Of a stretch of 64,000 nt of DNA, positions 8,176 through 28,647 are shown piece by piece. The notes under the pieces are model-generated. The model ran no database searches. It saw only the letters and a list, made by a program, of their open reading frames with translations, and was not told where the DNA came from. The translations under genes and the position numbers were made by a program. This DNA comes from a bacterium (GTDB taxonomy: Bacteria > RBG-13-66-14): contig DATKYS010000072.1 of assembly GCA_035528375.1 (NCBI GenBank), forward strand, positions 1 through 64,000, written 5' to 3'. Numbering within the stretch: position 1 is the first letter of the stretch; each line of letters starts with the position of its first letter.

Positions 8176-9234
8176 GTGGGGATTTTCGAAAAACTGGTCG
8201 AGGGCGGCCACGAGCAGCTCATCTTCTGCCAGCACCGCCCGACCAAGCTGCGCGCCCTGATCGCCATCCACAACACGACTTTGGGGCCGGCGCTGGGCGG
8301 ATGCCGAATCCGGAATTACCCCACCGAGGACGACGCCGTGGCCGACACGCTCCGTCTGGCGGAGAGTATGACCTATCAGGCGGCGCTGGCCAACTACGAC
8401 GCCGGCGGGGGGATGACCGTCATCTGGGGAGAGCCGGAGATAAAAGAGGACGAGGCTGTTCTGCGCGCCTTCGGTCGCTTCCTGAACGGCATCGGCGGCC
8501 GCATCGTCACCTTCTCCGACCTGGGCACCGACGACGACGACATGCGCTCGGTGGGCATCGAGACGCCCCACGTCATCGCCAGTTCCCCCCACGAGGTCCC
8601 CTCGGATGTGGGGGCGGCCTGGGGGGTGTTCTACGGCATCACCGCCTGCCTGAACACCGTTTTCAACAGCTCCAGCGTGCAGGACCGGACCGTCGTCATC
8701 CAGGGCGTGGGGGGCGTGGGCAGCGCCCTGGCTTCGATCCTCGTCCAGATGGGCGCAAAGCTCTACATTTCCGACCTGAAGTACGACCCCCTGAAGGCGA
8801 TTCAGGACCTCCACCCCGACGTGGAGATGGTCCGGACGGACGAGATTTACGACTTGCCGTGCGACATCTTCAGCCCCTGCGCCGTTGGGGGAGTGATAGA
8901 CGCCGACACGGTGGAGCGCCTGCGGTGCAAGATCGTGGCCGGCGCCGCCTTCAACGTCCTCTCCGACGCCTCCTTGGCGCTGCGTCTCGAGGAGCGGGGA
9001 ATCCTCCTCGCGCCGGAATTCGTGATAAACGCCGGCGACGTCCTGATGATGAACCGCCCGGGCGGCATGGCCGACCTCGAGGAGGTCAAACGGGCGACGC
9101 GCCAGATATACCTGAACCTTTCCAAGGTCTTCGCCCGCGCCAGACAGATGGGCGTTCCACCGCTCTTCGCCGCCCAGGAGATGGCGCGCGAGAAGATAGC
9201 CCGCATCGGAAAGACCAAGTCAATCATGTGCTAG
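8176..9234 (+). CDS. leucine/phenylalanine dehydrogenase-like protein lacking both active-site lysines
   Basis: The whole 352-residue chain follows leucine dehydrogenase of the Glu/Leu/Phe/Val family, residue for residue over the first 120: EQLIFCQ, TTLGPALGG, LAESMTY, GGG, SDLGT, then the Rossmann motif GVGGVGSA and CDIFSPCAVGGVI. The two lysines used for substrate binding and catalysis (68 and 80 in Bacillus enzymes) are Gln68 and Met80 here; Asp115 is kept. Normal oxidative deamination is therefore doubtful. It may be a binding or regulatory paralogue, or act on another substrate. GTG start at 8176 with GGAGG 8 nt upstream. The next gene, enolase, starts 27 nt after its stop. Confidence 0.85.
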   Translation: MGIFEKLVEGGHEQLIFCQHRPTKLRALIAIHNTTLGPALGGCRIRNYPTEDDAVADTLRLAESMTYQAALANYDAGGGMTVIWGEPEIKEDEAVLRAFGRFLNGIGGRIVTFSDLGTDDDDMRSVGIETPHVIASSPHEVPSDVGAAWGVFYGITACLNTVFNSSSVQDRTVVIQGVGGVGSALASILVQMGAKLYISDLKYDPLKAIQDLHPDVEMVRTDEIYDLPCDIFSPCAVGGVIDADTVERLRCKIVAGAAFNVLSDASLALRLEERGILLAPEFVINAGDVLMMNRPGGMADLEEVKRATRQIYLNLSKVFARARQMGVPPLFAAQEMAREKIARIGKTKSIMC

Positions 9235-22566: not shown

Positions 22567-23388
22567 TCATGCACCGGCCTCGGCGTCTTCGGGGGCAGGT
22601 TCCTCGGTTTCGGTTTCAGTCGGAGCCGGCTCGTCCTCGGCGGCGTCATCCTCCGGCATCTCAACAACGACCGCTTTCCGGGCGGGGCGTCCATACTCGG
22701 CCCGCTCCGCAAAGCCACCGGGCCAGCGGACGGACCAGGGCCAACCGGTATCGTCCAGGTAAAAGGCGAACCCCTGTGGCTCGACCAAAACTTCGAGGCA
22801 CGGGCGCACGCCCCAGGCCGTCTCCACGTCTTTCCGGCCCCCGACGGTGATTTCCAGGTCGTAATCGGTGCCCTGGCGCAGATCCCGGGCGGGTAGCCGG
22901 TACTCTTCCCCGTCCGCGAGCGCGCAGCCGGCGAGAATCATGGCGATGACGCCCACCGACGGCCCGTCGGTGAGCACGTCGGCGCGGCGGGTCAGGCCCG
23001 GACGACCCACGGCCCGCTCCTCGACCCCCGGGGACGGGTGAACGGTCAGGGTCACCAGGCCGGGGAGGAGGAGGCCCTCGCTCCAGCCCGCGCCGGTTTC
23101 GAGCCAAAAATCCGTCCGCCACCGACCCGAGCGGCAGGTAAGTGTCTCGCGGCCCAGGTAGTACGGGTCCGCGTCGCCGAACGGCTCGCCGAACGGCTCG
23201 CCGAAGCATTCCAGGACGATCGGCTCGACCGTGTCCGGCGGGAGGCGGTGCTGCGGTTCGTGATTCACCGCCGGGACGCTCGTACACAGATTGACCGGCG
23301 CCTCACCGGGCACGGGCGACGGTCCGTCGCAGCCGGTTATGAGCGTAGCGGCGAAGCCCAGAACGACCGATGTCTTTATGGTCCGCAC
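22567..23388 (-). CDS. lipoprotein of unknown function with acidic C-terminal tail
   Basis: About 273 residues with a lipoprotein signal (GFAATLITGC), a central part with four Cys, and a Pro/Glu/Asp/Thr-rich tail near the end. A short repeat ECFGEPFGEPFGDAD is seen. I do not recognise the family. The start is taken at the GTG at 23388, because a strong promoter ends only 8 nt before it; that would make the transcript nearly leaderless. The frame continues upstream past the promoter but without support. It opens the operon leading to cinA and fabG. Confidence 0.62.
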   Translation of the reverse strand: MRTIKTSVVLGFAATLITGCDGPSPVPGEAPVNLCTSVPAVNHEPQHRLPPDTVEPIVLECFGEPFGEPFGDADPYYLGRETLTCRSGRWRTDFWLETGAGWSEGLLLPGLVTLTVHPSPGVEERAVGRPGLTRRADVLTDGPSVGVIAMILAGCALADGEEYRLPARDLRQGTDYDLEITVGGRKDVETAWGVRPCLEVLVEPQGFAFYLDDTGWPWSVRWPGGFAERAEYGRPARKAVVVEMPEDDAAEDEPAPTETETEEPAPEDAEAGA

Positions 23389-23396
23389 GACTGCGG

Positions 23397-23425
23397 ATTC
23401 TAGCACAGCTCCCCGGGGCGGACAA
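23397..23425 (-). promoter_or_regulatory. sigma70 promoter for the lipoprotein-cinA-fabG operon
   Basis: TTGTCC, 17-nt spacer, TAGAAT on the minus strand. The -10 ends 8 nt before GTG 23388, so the message would have almost no leader. Confidence 0.65.
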
Positions 23426-23447
23426 GGCGACGTGGACGCGCGGGTTG

Positions 23448-23456
23448 TGGTAAACT
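23448..23456 (+). promoter_or_regulatory. extended -10 promoter for metG
   Basis: TGGTAAACT, an extended -10, 41 nt before the metG ATG and divergent from the 23397-23425 promoter. No convincing -35. Confidence 0.4.
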
Positions 23457-23497
23457 TTGCGTTTGCACTGCACCGTGGAGTACCTACGGGGAATTTC

Positions 23498-25573
23498 ATG
23501 GAAAAAATTCTCGTCACCAGCGCCCTTCCCTACGCCAACGGCCCGCTCCACGTGGGGCAGCTCGCCGGCGCCTACCTCCCCGCCGACATCTTCGTCCGCT
23601 ACCACCGCCGGCTGGGGAACGACGTAGTCTACGTCTGCGGCTCCGACGAGCACGGCGTGGCCATCACCCTGGCCGCCGACGCCCAGGGTACCACGCCCCG
23701 GGCCATCGTGGACTACCACCACCCGCGCCTGAAGCGCACCTTCGAGAGGCTCGACTTCTCACTGGACTGCTACGGGCGCACATCCTCGCCCATCCACCAC
23801 GACACGGCGCAGAAGTTCTTCACCGTCCTTCACGACGCCGGTTTCCTCTACACCAAGACCGTGGAGCAGTTCTACGACGCGAGTGTGGATCGCTGGCTGC
23901 CGGACCGTTACGTGGAGGGCACCTGCCCCCACTGCGGCGCGGAGAACGCCCGGGGGGACGAGTGCGAGAGCTGCGGGCGGTGGATCGAGGCCCGGACCCT
24001 CGTCGAGCCTCGGAGCAAGCTGACCGGCAGCGCCCCCGAGCTTCGAGAGACGACCCACTGGTACTTCCGGCTCTCCGGCCTCGAGGAGGAGGTCCGGCAC
24101 TGGATCGAGGCGCGGGACGCCGCGGTGGGCTGGAAGGACAACGTGCTCAACTACTGCCGCTCCTGGTTCAAGGAGGGGCTGAAGGACCGCCCGGTGACCC
24201 GCGACCTGAACTGGGGCGTCCCGGTCCCCCTACCGGGGGCGGAGGGCAAGGTCATCTACGTCTGGTTCGAGAACGTCCTGGGCTACGTCTCCAACGCCAA
24301 GGAATGGGCGGCGGAGCACGGGAGACCCGAGGCCTGGCGCGCGTTCTGGCTCAACCCCGACTGCCGCCTGTTCCACTTCATCGGCAAGGACAACATCGTC
24401 TTCCACGCCATTCTCTTCCCCGCGATGATTTTCGCCTACAACCGGTCCGTGCCCGAGACCGAGCGTTTCGTCCTGCCCGAGAACGTGCCGGCCAACGAGT
24501 TCCTGAACATCGAGGGCAAGAAGCTCTCCACCAGCCGCAACTGGGCCGTGTGGGTGGACGACGTGCTGGACGCCTTCCCCGTTTGCTACCTACGCTATTA
24601 CATGACCTTCTGCCTGCCCGAGACCCGGGACACCGATTTCAGCTGGGACGAGTTCGGTGAGCGGGTGAACTCCGAACTGGCCGATATCTACGGCAATCTG
24701 GTCCACCGGACGCTGGTGTTCATCCACCGTTACTTCTCGGGTGTCGTTCCCGATCCGGGAAAGCCCGATGACGCGGCGCGGGCGCTGGAAAGCGAGGTGG
24801 CCCGCCTGGTGGGCGAGGTGGCCCGCAGCATCGAGGGGTTCCGCTTCCGGGAGGCGGCCAAGCTGATGATGGACGTGGCCCGGGCCGGCAACAAGTACTT
24901 CGACGACGAGCGTCCCTGGGTCACCCGCAAGGATGACCTCCCGGCCTGCGCCCGGACGATGTACCATCTTTACCAGACCCTGGCGTCCCTGGCCATCGTG
25001 AGCAGTCCCTTCATCCCGGCGTCGGCGGCCCGGCTGGCCGGGCAGCTCGGCGTCGCCCCGGCCTTCGAAGGCTGGGGATGGGACGACGCCGCGCGCGGAG
25101 ACCTCGTTCCCGCGGGAACGAAGCTCGGCGAAATCGCCGTCCTCTTCGTAAAAATCGAGCCGGAGGAGATAGAAAAGCAGCGGGCAAAGCTGGGACGCCC
25201 GCTGGACGTTTCGGAGGAAAATGTGAACGTTCTGCCCCTGTCGGACGCGCTTTTGGAGTACGCCGATTTCGAGCGGCTGGACCTGCGCGTGGGAAAGGTG
25301 CTCGCGGCCGAACGGGTGCCCAAGACGGACAAGCTCCTCCGCCTGGAGGTGGACCTCGGGGCGGAGAAGCGGACCATCGTGGCCGGCATCGCCCTGCACT
25401 ACGCGCCCGAGGAACTCCCCGGTCGGCTCATCGTCGTCCTGGTGAACCTGAAGCCGGTAACGCTCCGGGGCGTGGAGAGCCGGGGGATGCTCCTGGCCGC
25501 CACGGAAGACGGCGGCGGGCTGCGTCTTTTGACCCTGGACGGCGACATCCCCCCGGGTTCCAAGGTGTCGTGA
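23498..25573 (+). CDS. metG: methionyl-tRNA synthetase
   Basis: Class I aminoacyl-tRNA synthetase that charges tRNA-Met. Seen: HIGH-region sequence ALPYANGPLHVGQ, a zinc knuckle with Cys143, Cys146, Cys156 and Cys159, the KMSKS loop as KLSTS (Lys342 to Ser346), an anticodon-binding domain, and a C-terminal tRNA-binding OB domain (DFERLDLRVGKV..EVDLG). It is 691 residues, the long form with the Trbp111-like dimer domain. GGGGAA precedes the ATG at 23498. It leads an eight-gene plus-strand run that ends at the terminator at 31570. Confidence 0.97.
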   Translation: MEKILVTSALPYANGPLHVGQLAGAYLPADIFVRYHRRLGNDVVYVCGSDEHGVAITLAADAQGTTPRAIVDYHHPRLKRTFERLDFSLDCYGRTSSPIHHDTAQKFFTVLHDAGFLYTKTVEQFYDASVDRWLPDRYVEGTCPHCGAENARGDECESCGRWIEARTLVEPRSKLTGSAPELRETTHWYFRLSGLEEEVRHWIEARDAAVGWKDNVLNYCRSWFKEGLKDRPVTRDLNWGVPVPLPGAEGKVIYVWFENVLGYVSNAKEWAAEHGRPEAWRAFWLNPDCRLFHFIGKDNIVFHAILFPAMIFAYNRSVPETERFVLPENVPANEFLNIEGKKLSTSRNWAVWVDDVLDAFPVCYLRYYMTFCLPETRDTDFSWDEFGERVNSELADIYGNLVHRTLVFIHRYFSGVVPDPGKPDDAARALESEVARLVGEVARSIEGFRFREAAKLMMDVARAGNKYFDDERPWVTRKDDLPACARTMYHLYQTLASLAIVSSPFIPASAARLAGQLGVAPAFEGWGWDDAARGDLVPAGTKLGEIAVLFVKIEPEEIEKQRAKLGRPLDVSEENVNVLPLSDALLEYADFERLDLRVGKVLAAERVPKTDKLLRLEVDLGAEKRTIVAGIALHYAPEELPGRLIVVLVNLKPVTLRGVESRGMLLAATEDGGGLRLLTLDGDIPPGSKVS

Positions 25574-25593: not shown

Positions 25594-26241
25594 GTGACGA
25601 TCGAAACCGTCGAATCGGTGGTGCGATGGATCGGCGCGGCGGCGGCGCTGGTGTTCTTGACGGTCGCAGTGGTCGGATTGGTCGTGACGAGGAACCGGCC
25701 CTCGGGGCGGACCGTCGGAAAGGTCCGACGTTGGTCGCCGCTATTTGCGCTGGTTTTTCTCGTTTTCATCGGCGCGTGCGTCTTTTTGTGGAAACCGATT
25801 CCGTTGAAGCTCACGTCCGGCTTCAGCGCGGCGGCTCTGGCCTTGGGTGCGCTCCTTTTTTTCCCGGGGTTGGCCCTGTACGTCCGGGGTCGGTTCGCAA
25901 TCGGAGATATGTTCGGCACCTCGAGCACTTCCGGTGCCGAGCTGTACGGCGATCACAGGCTGGTGACCCGCGGACCCTTCGCCCTGGTGCGTCATCCCAT
26001 GTATCTGGGGCTGATCCTCGCCGTCATCGGAGGATTGCTCGTCTACCGAACCTGGACGTTCGCGCTGTTACTCGTCTTTATCGTTGTGCTTCCCCTTCGT
26101 GCCCGCCGCGAGGAGCAGGTTTTGGCCGCCGAATTCGGCGGCGATTGGGAGGAGTACCGACGGGGGGTTCCGGCTTTCATCCCCTTTCGCTTTAAAGGGC
26201 GTGATTCGACCTTGAACAAGGGTGACCATGAAGGGGGTTGA
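25594..26241 (+). CDS. isoprenylcysteine carboxyl methyltransferase (ICMT)-family membrane protein
   Basis: A 215-residue protein with about five membrane segments and the ICMT/phospholipid-methyltransferase C-terminal pattern: TRGPFALVRHPMYLGLIL, then REEQVLAAEFGGDWEEYRR. In known members this region binds AdoMet; related proteins in the same superfamily include steroid 5-alpha-reductase-like enzymes. The substrate here is unknown; bacteria lack prenylated CaaX proteins. GTG start at 25594, 20 nt behind metG. It overlaps the KARI-like gene by 20 nt, which suggests the two work together. Confidence 0.75.
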   Translation: MTIETVESVVRWIGAAAALVFLTVAVVGLVVTRNRPSGRTVGKVRRWSPLFALVFLVFIGACVFLWKPIPLKLTSGFSAAALALGALLFFPGLALYVRGRFAIGDMFGTSSTSGAELYGDHRLVTRGPFALVRHPMYLGLILAVIGGLLVYRTWTFALLLVFIVVLPLRARREEQVLAAEFGGDWEEYRRGVPAFIPFRFKGRDSTLNKGDHEGG

Positions 26242-27235
26242 AAGGCGCGAGGTCCTCTTCGAGCAGGATTGCCCCGCTCTGGACCTGGGCCGGGTGGCCG
26301 TTCTCGGCTTCGGCAACCAGGGCCGGGCCCACGCCCTGAACCTGCGCGACGCGGGCGCGGACGTGGCGGTCGCCCTGCGCGCGGGCTCACCGAGCGCCGA
26401 GGTCGCCCGCGGGGAGCGTTTACACGTCTGTTCTCCGGGAGAGGCCGTCGGAGCCGACGTGCTGGTCTGGGCGATTCCCGACGAGGCCGTCCCCGACGCC
26501 GCTTCGTCTTTCAAGAAAATAAAAGACGGTCAGCTCTGGCTCTTCCTCCACGGCCTGGCCGTGACCTGGGGCTGGGTCGTCCCTCCGGGAAACGCGGATG
26601 TCGCCCTCCTCGCCCCCCAGGGTCCCGGCGCGGCGTTGAGGGGGCTCTTCCTGGCGGGGAAGGGCCTGCCGGGGGCCCTGGCCGTCGAGCGGGATTCCAC
26701 CGGGACGGCGGAAGAGCGGCTGCTGGCCTACGCCCGGGCGGTGGGGTGCGCCAGGGGCGGTCTCCTCTGGACCACCTTCCGCGAGGAGACCGTGGTGGAC
26801 CACTTCGGGGAGCAGGCCGTGCTGTGCGGCGGCGTCCCGACGCTGGTCCGGGCGGCCTGGGACACCTTAGTCGGGGCCGGGCACGACCCGCGCCTGGCCT
26901 ACATCGAGTGCATGATGCAACTCAAGCTCCTGGCCGATCTGATGTACGAGCGCGGAACGGCGGGGATGCGGGGCGCGATATCGGGTACGGCGCTCTTCGG
27001 CGCGGCGACCGGCGGCGATGATGTGATCGGGGCGGAGACCAAAAAACGGCTCAGGGCGCTTTTAGAAAAAATCGAATCGGGCGCCTTTGCCGACCGCTGG
27101 CTCGCCGAATCCGGGAAACCGGACTGGCCCCGGGAAAGGGAACGCATCCTCGGCGGTGCGGACCCCTTCGAGGAGGCCGGCCGCTGGGTGCGCGAGAATC
27201 TTCGCTGGCCCGGTCTGGGCGGGGAGAACAGATGA
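26222..27235 (+). CDS. ketol-acid reductoisomerase-like protein with altered active site
   Basis: A 337-residue protein with the full class I KARI layout: Rossmann motif GFGNQGRAHALNLRDAG and the knotted helical domain (FGEQAVLCGG, AYIECMMQLKLLADLMYE, ISGT). Key positions differ from active enzymes: APKGPG is APQGPG (Gln133 for the catalytic Lys), one metal Glu is Gln233, and TAEYG is TALFG. Asp193, Glu197, Glu229, Ser254 and the LHG histidine (His110) are kept. Ordinary KARI activity in valine/leucine synthesis is therefore unlikely, and no ilv genes are near. GTG at 26222 or ATG at 26228 could be the start. It may be an NADPH-dependent enzyme for another substrate. Confidence 0.82.
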   Translation: MTMKGVERREVLFEQDCPALDLGRVAVLGFGNQGRAHALNLRDAGADVAVALRAGSPSAEVARGERLHVCSPGEAVGADVLVWAIPDEAVPDAASSFKKIKDGQLWLFLHGLAVTWGWVVPPGNADVALLAPQGPGAALRGLFLAGKGLPGALAVERDSTGTAEERLLAYARAVGCARGGLLWTTFREETVVDHFGEQAVLCGGVPTLVRAAWDTLVGAGHDPRLAYIECMMQLKLLADLMYERGTAGMRGAISGTALFGAATGGDDVIGAETKKRLRALLEKIESGAFADRWLAESGKPDWPRERERILGGADPFEEAGRWVRENLRWPGLGGENR

Positions 27236-27936
27236 CCGTACAACTGCCCGTCACGCCGCCGATTCCCCAGATATACTCCATCGCGTACATAATCGCCTAC
27301 GTGTTCCTGGTGGTGGGCGTCGTCGAGCAGTTCCGCTCCAGGGGCGTCATCTCCGACCTCTCGTCGCGGAACATCGTGGGTCTGGGCGTGGTCCCCTGCA
27401 CCCTGGCCGCTCCCTGGCTCTTCACCGACTGGTACTGGGTGCTGGCGGCGTCGGTGCTCTTCCTCGTGTTGAGCGCCCTCTCGATGAAGTTCGGCCTGCT
27501 CTCGAGCGTGGACGCGGAGAAGGGGCGGTTCGGCGGCGTGGCGATGGCCATCGTGCTGTGCGTCTCGGTTTTCATCGGCTGGTTCTTCACCGACCCGGGG
27601 CGGGGTATCGAGCTTCGACCCCTCGCCGCCTTCTGCGTCTTCCCCTCCTCCGTGGCCGACAGCCTCGCCGCCATGGTGGGCCGGCGATACGGCAAGGGAG
27701 AGCTCCGGCGCAATCGCTCGAAGATAGGCACCGCGGCCGGGATGCTGGGGGGCGTCGCGGCCTTCGTAATCGTGAACGTTATCTTCGGGTTCACCGGTTG
27801 GCTTTCCTACATCCTCGCCGTGGGCTTCGGGGCGCTCGTCGGTCTAGCCGAGCTGATAAGCCCGGTTCAGCTCGACAACCTCGTTACGGGCGTCGTGGCC
27901 GGCGTGGGCGGTTACCTCATCCTCACCCTGGGGTAA
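27232..27936 (+). CDS. polyprenol/phytol/dolichol kinase-like membrane protein (first of a tandem pair)
   Basis: A 234-residue protein with about seven hydrophobic helices and the kinase/cytidylyltransferase-type pattern of the dolichol/phytol kinase family: SSRNIVGLGVV after the first helices, then SVADSLAAMVGRRYGKGEL and RSKIGTAAG. Members use CTP to phosphorylate long-chain prenols. The motif His of RKxxHI is missing here but present in its tandem neighbour, so the pair may be a heteromer or one may be degenerate. It overlaps the KARI-like stop as ATGA. The prenol substrate is unknown. Confidence 0.68.
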   Translation: MTVQLPVTPPIPQIYSIAYIIAYVFLVVGVVEQFRSRGVISDLSSRNIVGLGVVPCTLAAPWLFTDWYWVLAASVLFLVLSALSMKFGLLSSVDAEKGRFGGVAMAIVLCVSVFIGWFFTDPGRGIELRPLAAFCVFPSSVADSLAAMVGRRYGKGELRRNRSKIGTAAGMLGGVAAFVIVNVIFGFTGWLSYILAVGFGALVGLAELISPVQLDNLVTGVVAGVGGYLILTLG

Positions 27937-27948
27937 GAAGGAGGCTCC

Positions 27949-28647
27949 ATGAACCAGTGGGTTTCCCTGGCCGTCTCCTACGCGGCCGTCTTCGCGGTCA
28001 TCGGCACGGCGGGCGTCCTGGCCAGGAAGGAAAAAATCTCCGGCGAGGCGGCGCGGAAAGTCATCCACATCGGGGTGAGCAACTGGATCATCCTCGCCCT
28101 GTTCATCTTCCGCGACTGGTACTTCGCGATAGCAGGCCCGCTCTCCTTCATCGTCATCAACTACGTCTCCTGGAAGCTCGACCTCTTCAAGGGGATGGAA
28201 TCGGGGGACAAGAGCCCGGGCACGGTGTTCTTCTCCGTCAGCCTCTCGATTCTCACCTGGCACTTCTGGTGGCTGGCGAACATCGGCGCCGGCGATTTCC
28301 GCTACGCGGCCGTCATGGGGATACTCGTCCTGGGGTGGGGCGACGGGCTCGCGGCGGTTTTCGGCCACAAGTGGGGGAAGACGAAGCTTTTCGGCCAGAA
28401 AAGCCTCGTCGGTACGCTGACGATGTTCGTCACGAGCGCCGTCGTGGTTTTTTTGGTTCTGACCCTCGTCGGGGCGCACGACCTTTTGACCAACGTCCTG
28501 TTGGCCCTCGGCCTGGGCGCCCTGGGGACGCTGACGGAGCTCTTCCTCCCCGGGGGCTGGGACAATCTCCTGATCCCCCTGGTCGTGTCATACGCCTACT
28601 ACGGCTGGTTTTGGCTGTGCAATCTCGCCGCGGGCGGCGTTTTCTGA
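27949..28647 (+). CDS. polyprenol/phytol/dolichol kinase-like membrane protein (second of a tandem pair)
   Basis: A 232-residue membrane protein of the phytol/dolichol kinase family. It keeps the hallmark motifs RKVIHIGVSN, GWGDGLAAVFGHKWGK and GQKSLVGT, so it is the better candidate for activity of the tandem pair. About seven hydrophobic helices are seen. AGGAGG precedes the ATG at 27949, 12 nt behind its paralogue. The four genes from 25594 to 28647 form a tight unit of three membrane proteins plus one NADPH-fold protein, suggesting prenol or lipid chemistry. Confidence 0.75.
   Translation: MNQWVSLAVSYAAVFAVIGTAGVLARKEKISGEAARKVIHIGVSNWIILALFIFRDWYFAIAGPLSFIVINYVSWKLDLFKGMESGDKSPGTVFFSVSLSILTWHFWWLANIGAGDFRYAAVMGILVLGWGDGLAAVFGHKWGKTKLFGQKSLVGTLTMFVTSAVVVFLVLTLVGAHDLLTNVLLALGLGALGTLTELFLPGGWDNLLIPLVVSYAYYGWFWLCNLAAGGVF

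Follow-up and report, generated by a model that had tools for sequence, protein, structure and literature searches.

Class I ketol-acid reductoisomerase (KARI, or IlvC) couples two reactions: an alkyl shift that requires both Mg ions and a proton-accepting Glu, followed by reduction of the 2-oxo acid with NADPH. In the class I enzyme, D191 and E195 bind Mg(I), while D191, E227, and E231 bind Mg(II) (PMC5940873), and in spinach KARI the substrate proton is accepted by E496 (PMC11264209). The isomerase activity can be separated from the reductase activity, and the reduction of ketopantoate includes no isomerization step (PMC4353338). IlvC is the ketopantoate reductase of Corynebacterium glutamicum and takes the place of PanE in Buchnera (PMC4306246), backs up PanE in Salmonella (PMC5965847), and is one of three ketopantoate reductases in Bacillus subtilis (PMC11487621).

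Here we compare these systems with a KARI-like gene in the window, a 64,000-nucleotide stretch from a Coatesbacteria assembly of 2.63 Mb (100% complete, 0.28% contaminated). Our phylum sample comprises 14 genomes of the uncultured Coatesbacteria in five families (f1-f5), the window's family being f1. Sequence comparison leads us to propose that the gene is a former KARI, now probably a reductase only, whose most likely activity is that of ketopantoate (2-dehydropantoate) 2-reductase in pantothenate and coenzyme A synthesis. The protein shares its fold family, NADPH loop, Mg(I) ligands, and substrate Ser with class I KARI (IlvC; TIGR00465, KARI_N/KARI_C) but has Gln in place of the active-site Lys (Met in f2-f5), and in f1 the second-metal Glu is replaced as well. 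Its setting also differs from that of class I KARI, as the organism has a single KARI gene and no acetolactate synthase over the cut-off. Like the dual-function IlvC of C. glutamicum and Buchnera, it would be a KARI-fold ketopantoate reductase in a genome with no PanE. Those two enzymes are still branched-chain KARIs, whereas the window protein has lost isomerase-step residues in an organism whose pathway entry is missing, so that reduction would be its sole role. PanE/ApbA (TIGR00745) and PanG, which perform the reaction proposed here, have no match over the cut-off in these genomes; they form families distinct from KARI within the wider 6-phosphogluconate dehydrogenase superfamily.

A full-length KARI homolog with an altered active site

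The window ORF encodes a full-length class I KARI homolog (Table 1), whose translation could start equally well at the in-frame ATG at 26228. Pfam detects KARI_N (1.6e-39) and KARI_C (1.1e-36), both over their gathering scores, and the protein reaches 257 bits on TIGR00465 (ilvC) against a cut-off of 226. A PDB search retrieves class I KARIs with E values down to 3e-89, and the protein is about 37-46% identical to ordinary KARIs from other phyla. With only two relatives as input, AlphaFold2 returned a poor model (mean pLDDT 53). Omega values of 0.25 and 0.28 indicate that the gene is under purifying selection.

Table 1. Features of the KARI-like gene and its neighbors in the window
Feature	Position	Strand	Remarks	Basis
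metG (methionyl-tRNA synthetase)	23291-25573	+	true start probably 3' of the listed TTG	
PEMT/ICMT-type membrane methyltransferase	25594-26241	+	20-bp overlap with the KARI-like start	
KARI-like gene, Lys-less, proposed ketopantoate reductase	26222-27235	+	337 aa, GTG start as listed	
Rossmann NADP site	26306-26395	+	GFGNQG and ALR-x-GS-x-S (Arg53, Ser56; NADPH-type loop)	alignment
Gln133 (codon CAG)	26618-26620	+	active-site Lys position (APKGPG; here AP-Q-GPG)	alignment with 129 outside KARIs
D193 and E197 (DHFGE)	26798-26812	+	Mg(I) ligands, kept	invariant in 140 aligned sequences
Glu229	26906-26908	+	first Glu of the Mg(II) pair, kept	invariant in alignment
Gln233 (codon CAA)	26918-26920	+	in MMQLKLL; second-metal Glu position (class I E231)	alignment, PMC5940873
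Ser254	26981-26983	+	kept	invariant in alignment
Weak CTP_transf_1-type (dolichol/phytol kinase-like) membrane protein	27232-27936	+	4-bp overlap of its start with the KARI-like stop	
Relative of the 27232-27936 membrane protein	27949-28647	+	same sequence cluster; no convincing Pfam match	

The original prediction described a KARI-like protein with Gln133 for Lys and Gln233 for Glu, and both codons and alignment confirm it. The NADPH fold and first metal ligands were correctly said to be kept: D193, E197, and the GFGNQG loop are all present. As the ligand spacing matches the published class I set, Gln233 stands in for E231, the presumed counterpart of E496 in the spinach enzyme. Sequencing error as the source of the substitutions was ruled out, since the same residues occur in five genomes of f1, that is, in four besides the window's own. 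Of the features of a functional IlvC, the window protein thus has the domains and the Mg(I) ligands and lacks the complete Mg(II) Glu pair and the active-site Lys.

What has been retained? No variation occurs across the Lys-less clade in the Mg(I) ligands, Ser254, Cys202, or the NADPH loop. Ser254 is presumably the substrate-binding Ser of known KARIs, as seen in established KARI structures. Arg53 and Ser56 are found in all 11 Coatesbacteria KARI-like proteins, and the conserved nucleotide loop (GFGNQG, ALR-x-GS-x-S) fits the use of NADPH.

A third substitution, Leu for the Glu of TAEYG, had also been read as active-site damage. The change is real, but it is not a lesion by itself, since genuine KARIs may have E, K, Q, A, or R at this position. 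Leu is present in 13/13 Lys-less proteins and in 0/127 Lys-bearing ones; it is a correlated change and a marker of the Lys-less group.

Distribution of the Lys-less KARI homologs

Full-length KARI-like proteins were detected in 11 phylum genomes, one in each, including all nine of high quality; the remaining rows of the KARI search in the phylum are Rossmann matches of low score and short length. Only the three least complete genomes (70-78%) lack a full-length gene. The active-site Lys is absent from all 11 proteins and is replaced by Gln in f1 (five proteins) and by Met in f2-f5 (six). The second-metal Glu is Gln in 5/5 f1 proteins and remains Glu in 6/6 f2-f5 proteins. Outside the phylum, the Lys is present in 127 of the 129 sampled KARIs, and the metal ligands, second-metal Glu included, are complete in all 129. 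The two exceptions, L162 (G082 contig C8) and L192 (G352 contig C42), belong to one family, f74, and have Met for the active-site Lys. In both, the TAEYG Glu is replaced by Leu and the Lys of ELKLI by Asp.

Maximum-likelihood phylogenetic analysis places 39 ordinary KARIs (100/99 support) apart from all Lys-less ones, L162 among them; long branches leave the inner order of the tree unsure. When 386 genomes were searched with the profile of the Coatesbacteria proteins, these proteins themselves scored 494-541 bits and everything else at most 411. More tentatively than for the window gene itself, we suggest that these proteins may form a clade of Lys-less, Leu258 KARI-fold enzymes, dedicated ketopantoate reductases without the isomerase half-reaction, spanning Coatesbacteria and at least one outside family, with the two-metal center dismantled toward a one-metal center in f1.

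Branched-chain and pantothenate pathways in the phylum

Could these organisms use a KARI for valine and leucine? No acetolactate synthase was found over the model cut-off in 14/14 phylum genomes, while 14/14 control genomes were positive; the branched-chain pathway is therefore left without an entry. Three f3 genomes encode a distant acetolactate-synthase-like protein (about 275-293 bits versus a cut-off of 538). IlvD/Edd-family proteins are confined to f1 and f3, and in f2, f4, and f5 the KARI-like gene occurs without an IlvD-like or an acetolactate-synthase-like protein. In the window's own genome, L134 6588-8276 (G000 contig C10) is a divergent IlvD/Edd-family dehydratase that scores 437 bits on the ilvD model, whose cut-off is 618. 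These genome-wide absences are results of profile searches, and the incompleteness of metagenome-assembled genomes bears on single absences, not on phylum-wide ones.

The original prediction had suggested looking for a true ilvC elsewhere in the genome, and the search was negative: the window gene is the only KARI homolog there. The prediction had been held open to reversal should this prove to be the only KARI of a valine-making genome, a case not borne out by the 14 genomes, none of which has an acetolactate synthase over the cut-off.

The pantothenate pathway is present with a gap. Matches over the cut-off were obtained for panB in 13/14 phylum genomes and for panC in 10/14, or 11/14 when one genome with a split copy is counted, and folK-panB-panC-panD runs occur in f2 and f5. 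In 11 Coatesbacteria genomes searched with the PanE model (TIGR00745), no match exceeds 28 bits, compared to 211-280 bits in five outside genomes, and the weak matches inspected are glycerol-3-phosphate, UDP-glucose, and 3-hydroxybutyryl-CoA dehydrogenases. The KARI-like protein itself has no match to TIGR00745, and its locus is absent from the TIGR00745 matches in its genome. DUF2520, which we take to be the marker domain for PanG, is absent from the phylum genomes searched. At the genome level, then, PanB and PanC are present and a PanE- or PanG-type reductase is absent, as expected where another protein supplies ketopantoate reductase.

PanE is also absent by TIGR00745 from both f74 genomes with a Lys-less KARI, each of which shows a single KARI match. 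In total, 13/13 genomes with a Lys-less KARI are without PanE, versus 5/10 with an ordinary KARI (one-sided Fisher test, 0.007), an association that is suggestive and comes from two lineages only. Five genomes outside the phylum (G030, G032, G017, G036, and G345) combine an ordinary Lys-bearing KARI with no PanE over the cut-off; their KARIs are candidates for dual-function IlvC.

Several observations count against a role in pantoate synthesis. G001, 96% complete and carrying the KARI-like gene, has neither panB nor panC. The IlvD-like protein persists in two families, and the acetolactate-synthase-like protein in three f3 genomes. In no genome read does the KARI-like gene lie next to panB or panC; the genes are apart wherever both could be placed.

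Gene neighborhood

In f1, the gene order is metG, the ICMT-type methyltransferase (in the window), the KARI-like gene, two related membrane proteins, and a metallophosphatase. The surroundings are as first described, with no adjacent ilv genes and neighbors of membrane lipid type. A functional tie to these neighbors is not supported by the other families, where the order is rng, zinc-ribbon protein, KARI-like gene (f3 and f5) or CDP-alcohol phosphatidyltransferase (pgsA-type), KARI-like gene, rex (f2 and f4). An ICMT-type gene adjoins the KARI-like gene in f5 too. The pgsA-type/KARI-like/rex run is tight at L078 9132-11435 and L080 872-3123, in two Coatesbacteria families. Of the conserved clade with common substitutions and common neighbors that had been envisaged, the first part stands, as Lys loss defines a clade with Gln133 and Gln233 in f1; the neighbors are not shared across families. 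A lipid-operon role was down-weighted for the same reason. The lack of a constant partner across families can be expected of a housekeeping gene.

Proposed function and alternatives

Why would a KARI dispense with the residues of its first reaction? We infer that the substrate is ketopantoate, that the isomerase activity is lost, and that Lys and Glu were freed by the loss of the branched-chain pathway. PanB would produce ketopantoate, the KARI-like protein would reduce its C2 ketone to pantoate with NADPH, and PanC would join pantoate to beta-alanine; a likely source of the 2-oxoisovalerate for PanB is valine transamination. As a 2-oxo acid, ketopantoate would call on the reductase half of KARI and not on the isomerase half. 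Because its reduction needs that half only and ordinary IlvC performs it, a dedicated KARI-derived reductase is proposed. Mutagenesis of E. coli KARI, in FEBS J in 2005, reportedly yielded mutants that had lost the isomerase and kept the reductase activity.

After loss of the branched-chain pathway and PanE, IlvC would have been kept for pantoate, with its isomerase residues under relaxed selection. The Lys would have been freed first and the second-metal Glu then freed in f1, both presumably serving alkyl migration. Relaxed isomerase selection predicts the observed pattern, in which the Lys is gone everywhere, one Mg(II) ligand is gone in f1, and the Mg(I) and NADPH sites are untouched. Two possibilities count against the proposal: these genomes could encode some other, non-homologous ketopantoate reductase, and Gln233 might also weaken the reductase activity.

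The alternative that survives best, and one we consider unlikely, is a reductase of a different 2-oxo acid, such as a branched-chain or lipid-linked intermediate tied to the membrane-protein neighbors. The reductase activity of KARI is promiscuous (PMC4353338), the conserved f1 neighbors are membrane proteins of lipid-enzyme type, and a pgsA-type gene is adjacent in f2 and f4. However, the neighbors vary by family with no constant partner, and such a substrate would leave the gap in the pantothenate pathway unexplained.

Less probable still is a pseudoenzyme that binds NADP(H) without catalysis and acts as a redox sensor or scaffold. Loss of the Lys and Glu agrees with such a role, as does the position next to rex, the gene of a redox repressor, in two families, yet a dead protein would have no need for the invariant Mg(I) ligands, Ser254, Cys202, and NADPH loop, and the reaction missing from the pantothenate pathway is exactly what the KARI fold can do.

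It is very unlikely that the window protein is a working acetohydroxyacid isomeroreductase of the valine/leucine pathway, an ordinary KARI that tolerates its substitutions: the TIGR00465 ilvC equivalog cut-off is passed, the Mg(I) site and most of the fold are intact, and the window's genome has an IlvD-like protein, but the phylum has no acetolactate synthase over the cut-off, the Lys is missing from all its full-length members (and here the second-metal Glu too), and the IlvD-like protein, at 437 versus 618 bits, is missing from three families in which the KARI-like gene is present.

Returning to the proposed ketopantoate reductase, what would it change? The standard annotation, ilvC, derives from TIGR00465; it would credit the phylum with a branched-chain step that is probably absent and leave a hole in coenzyme A synthesis. 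If our proposal is true, these proteins are a natural example of a two-reaction enzyme reduced to one reaction after pathway loss. The roles of the Lys and the second Mg in isomerization versus reduction would then be directly testable by comparing proteins found in nature: those with Lys and two Mg, with Met and two Mg, and with Gln and one missing Mg(II) ligand.

A second altered dehydrogenase in the window

The KARI-like gene had been linked to another window gene, 8176-9234, as a second branched-chain amino acid enzyme with Lys-to-Gln type changes. A shared pathway was rejected, since the distributions differ: close relatives of 8176-9234 are confined to f1, are missing there from the 99% complete genome G004, and are absent from the other families with a Lys-less KARI. 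The protein belongs to the Glu/Leu/Phe/Val dehydrogenase family, its best NCBIfam match being ScyB, below the cut-off. Both family lysines are replaced (MTYQ for MTYK, GGGM for GGGK). It is conserved in five f1 genomes at 62-94% identity to the window's copy. Those genomes also encode a second paralog, in which the first Lys is retained and the second is Gln or Glu.
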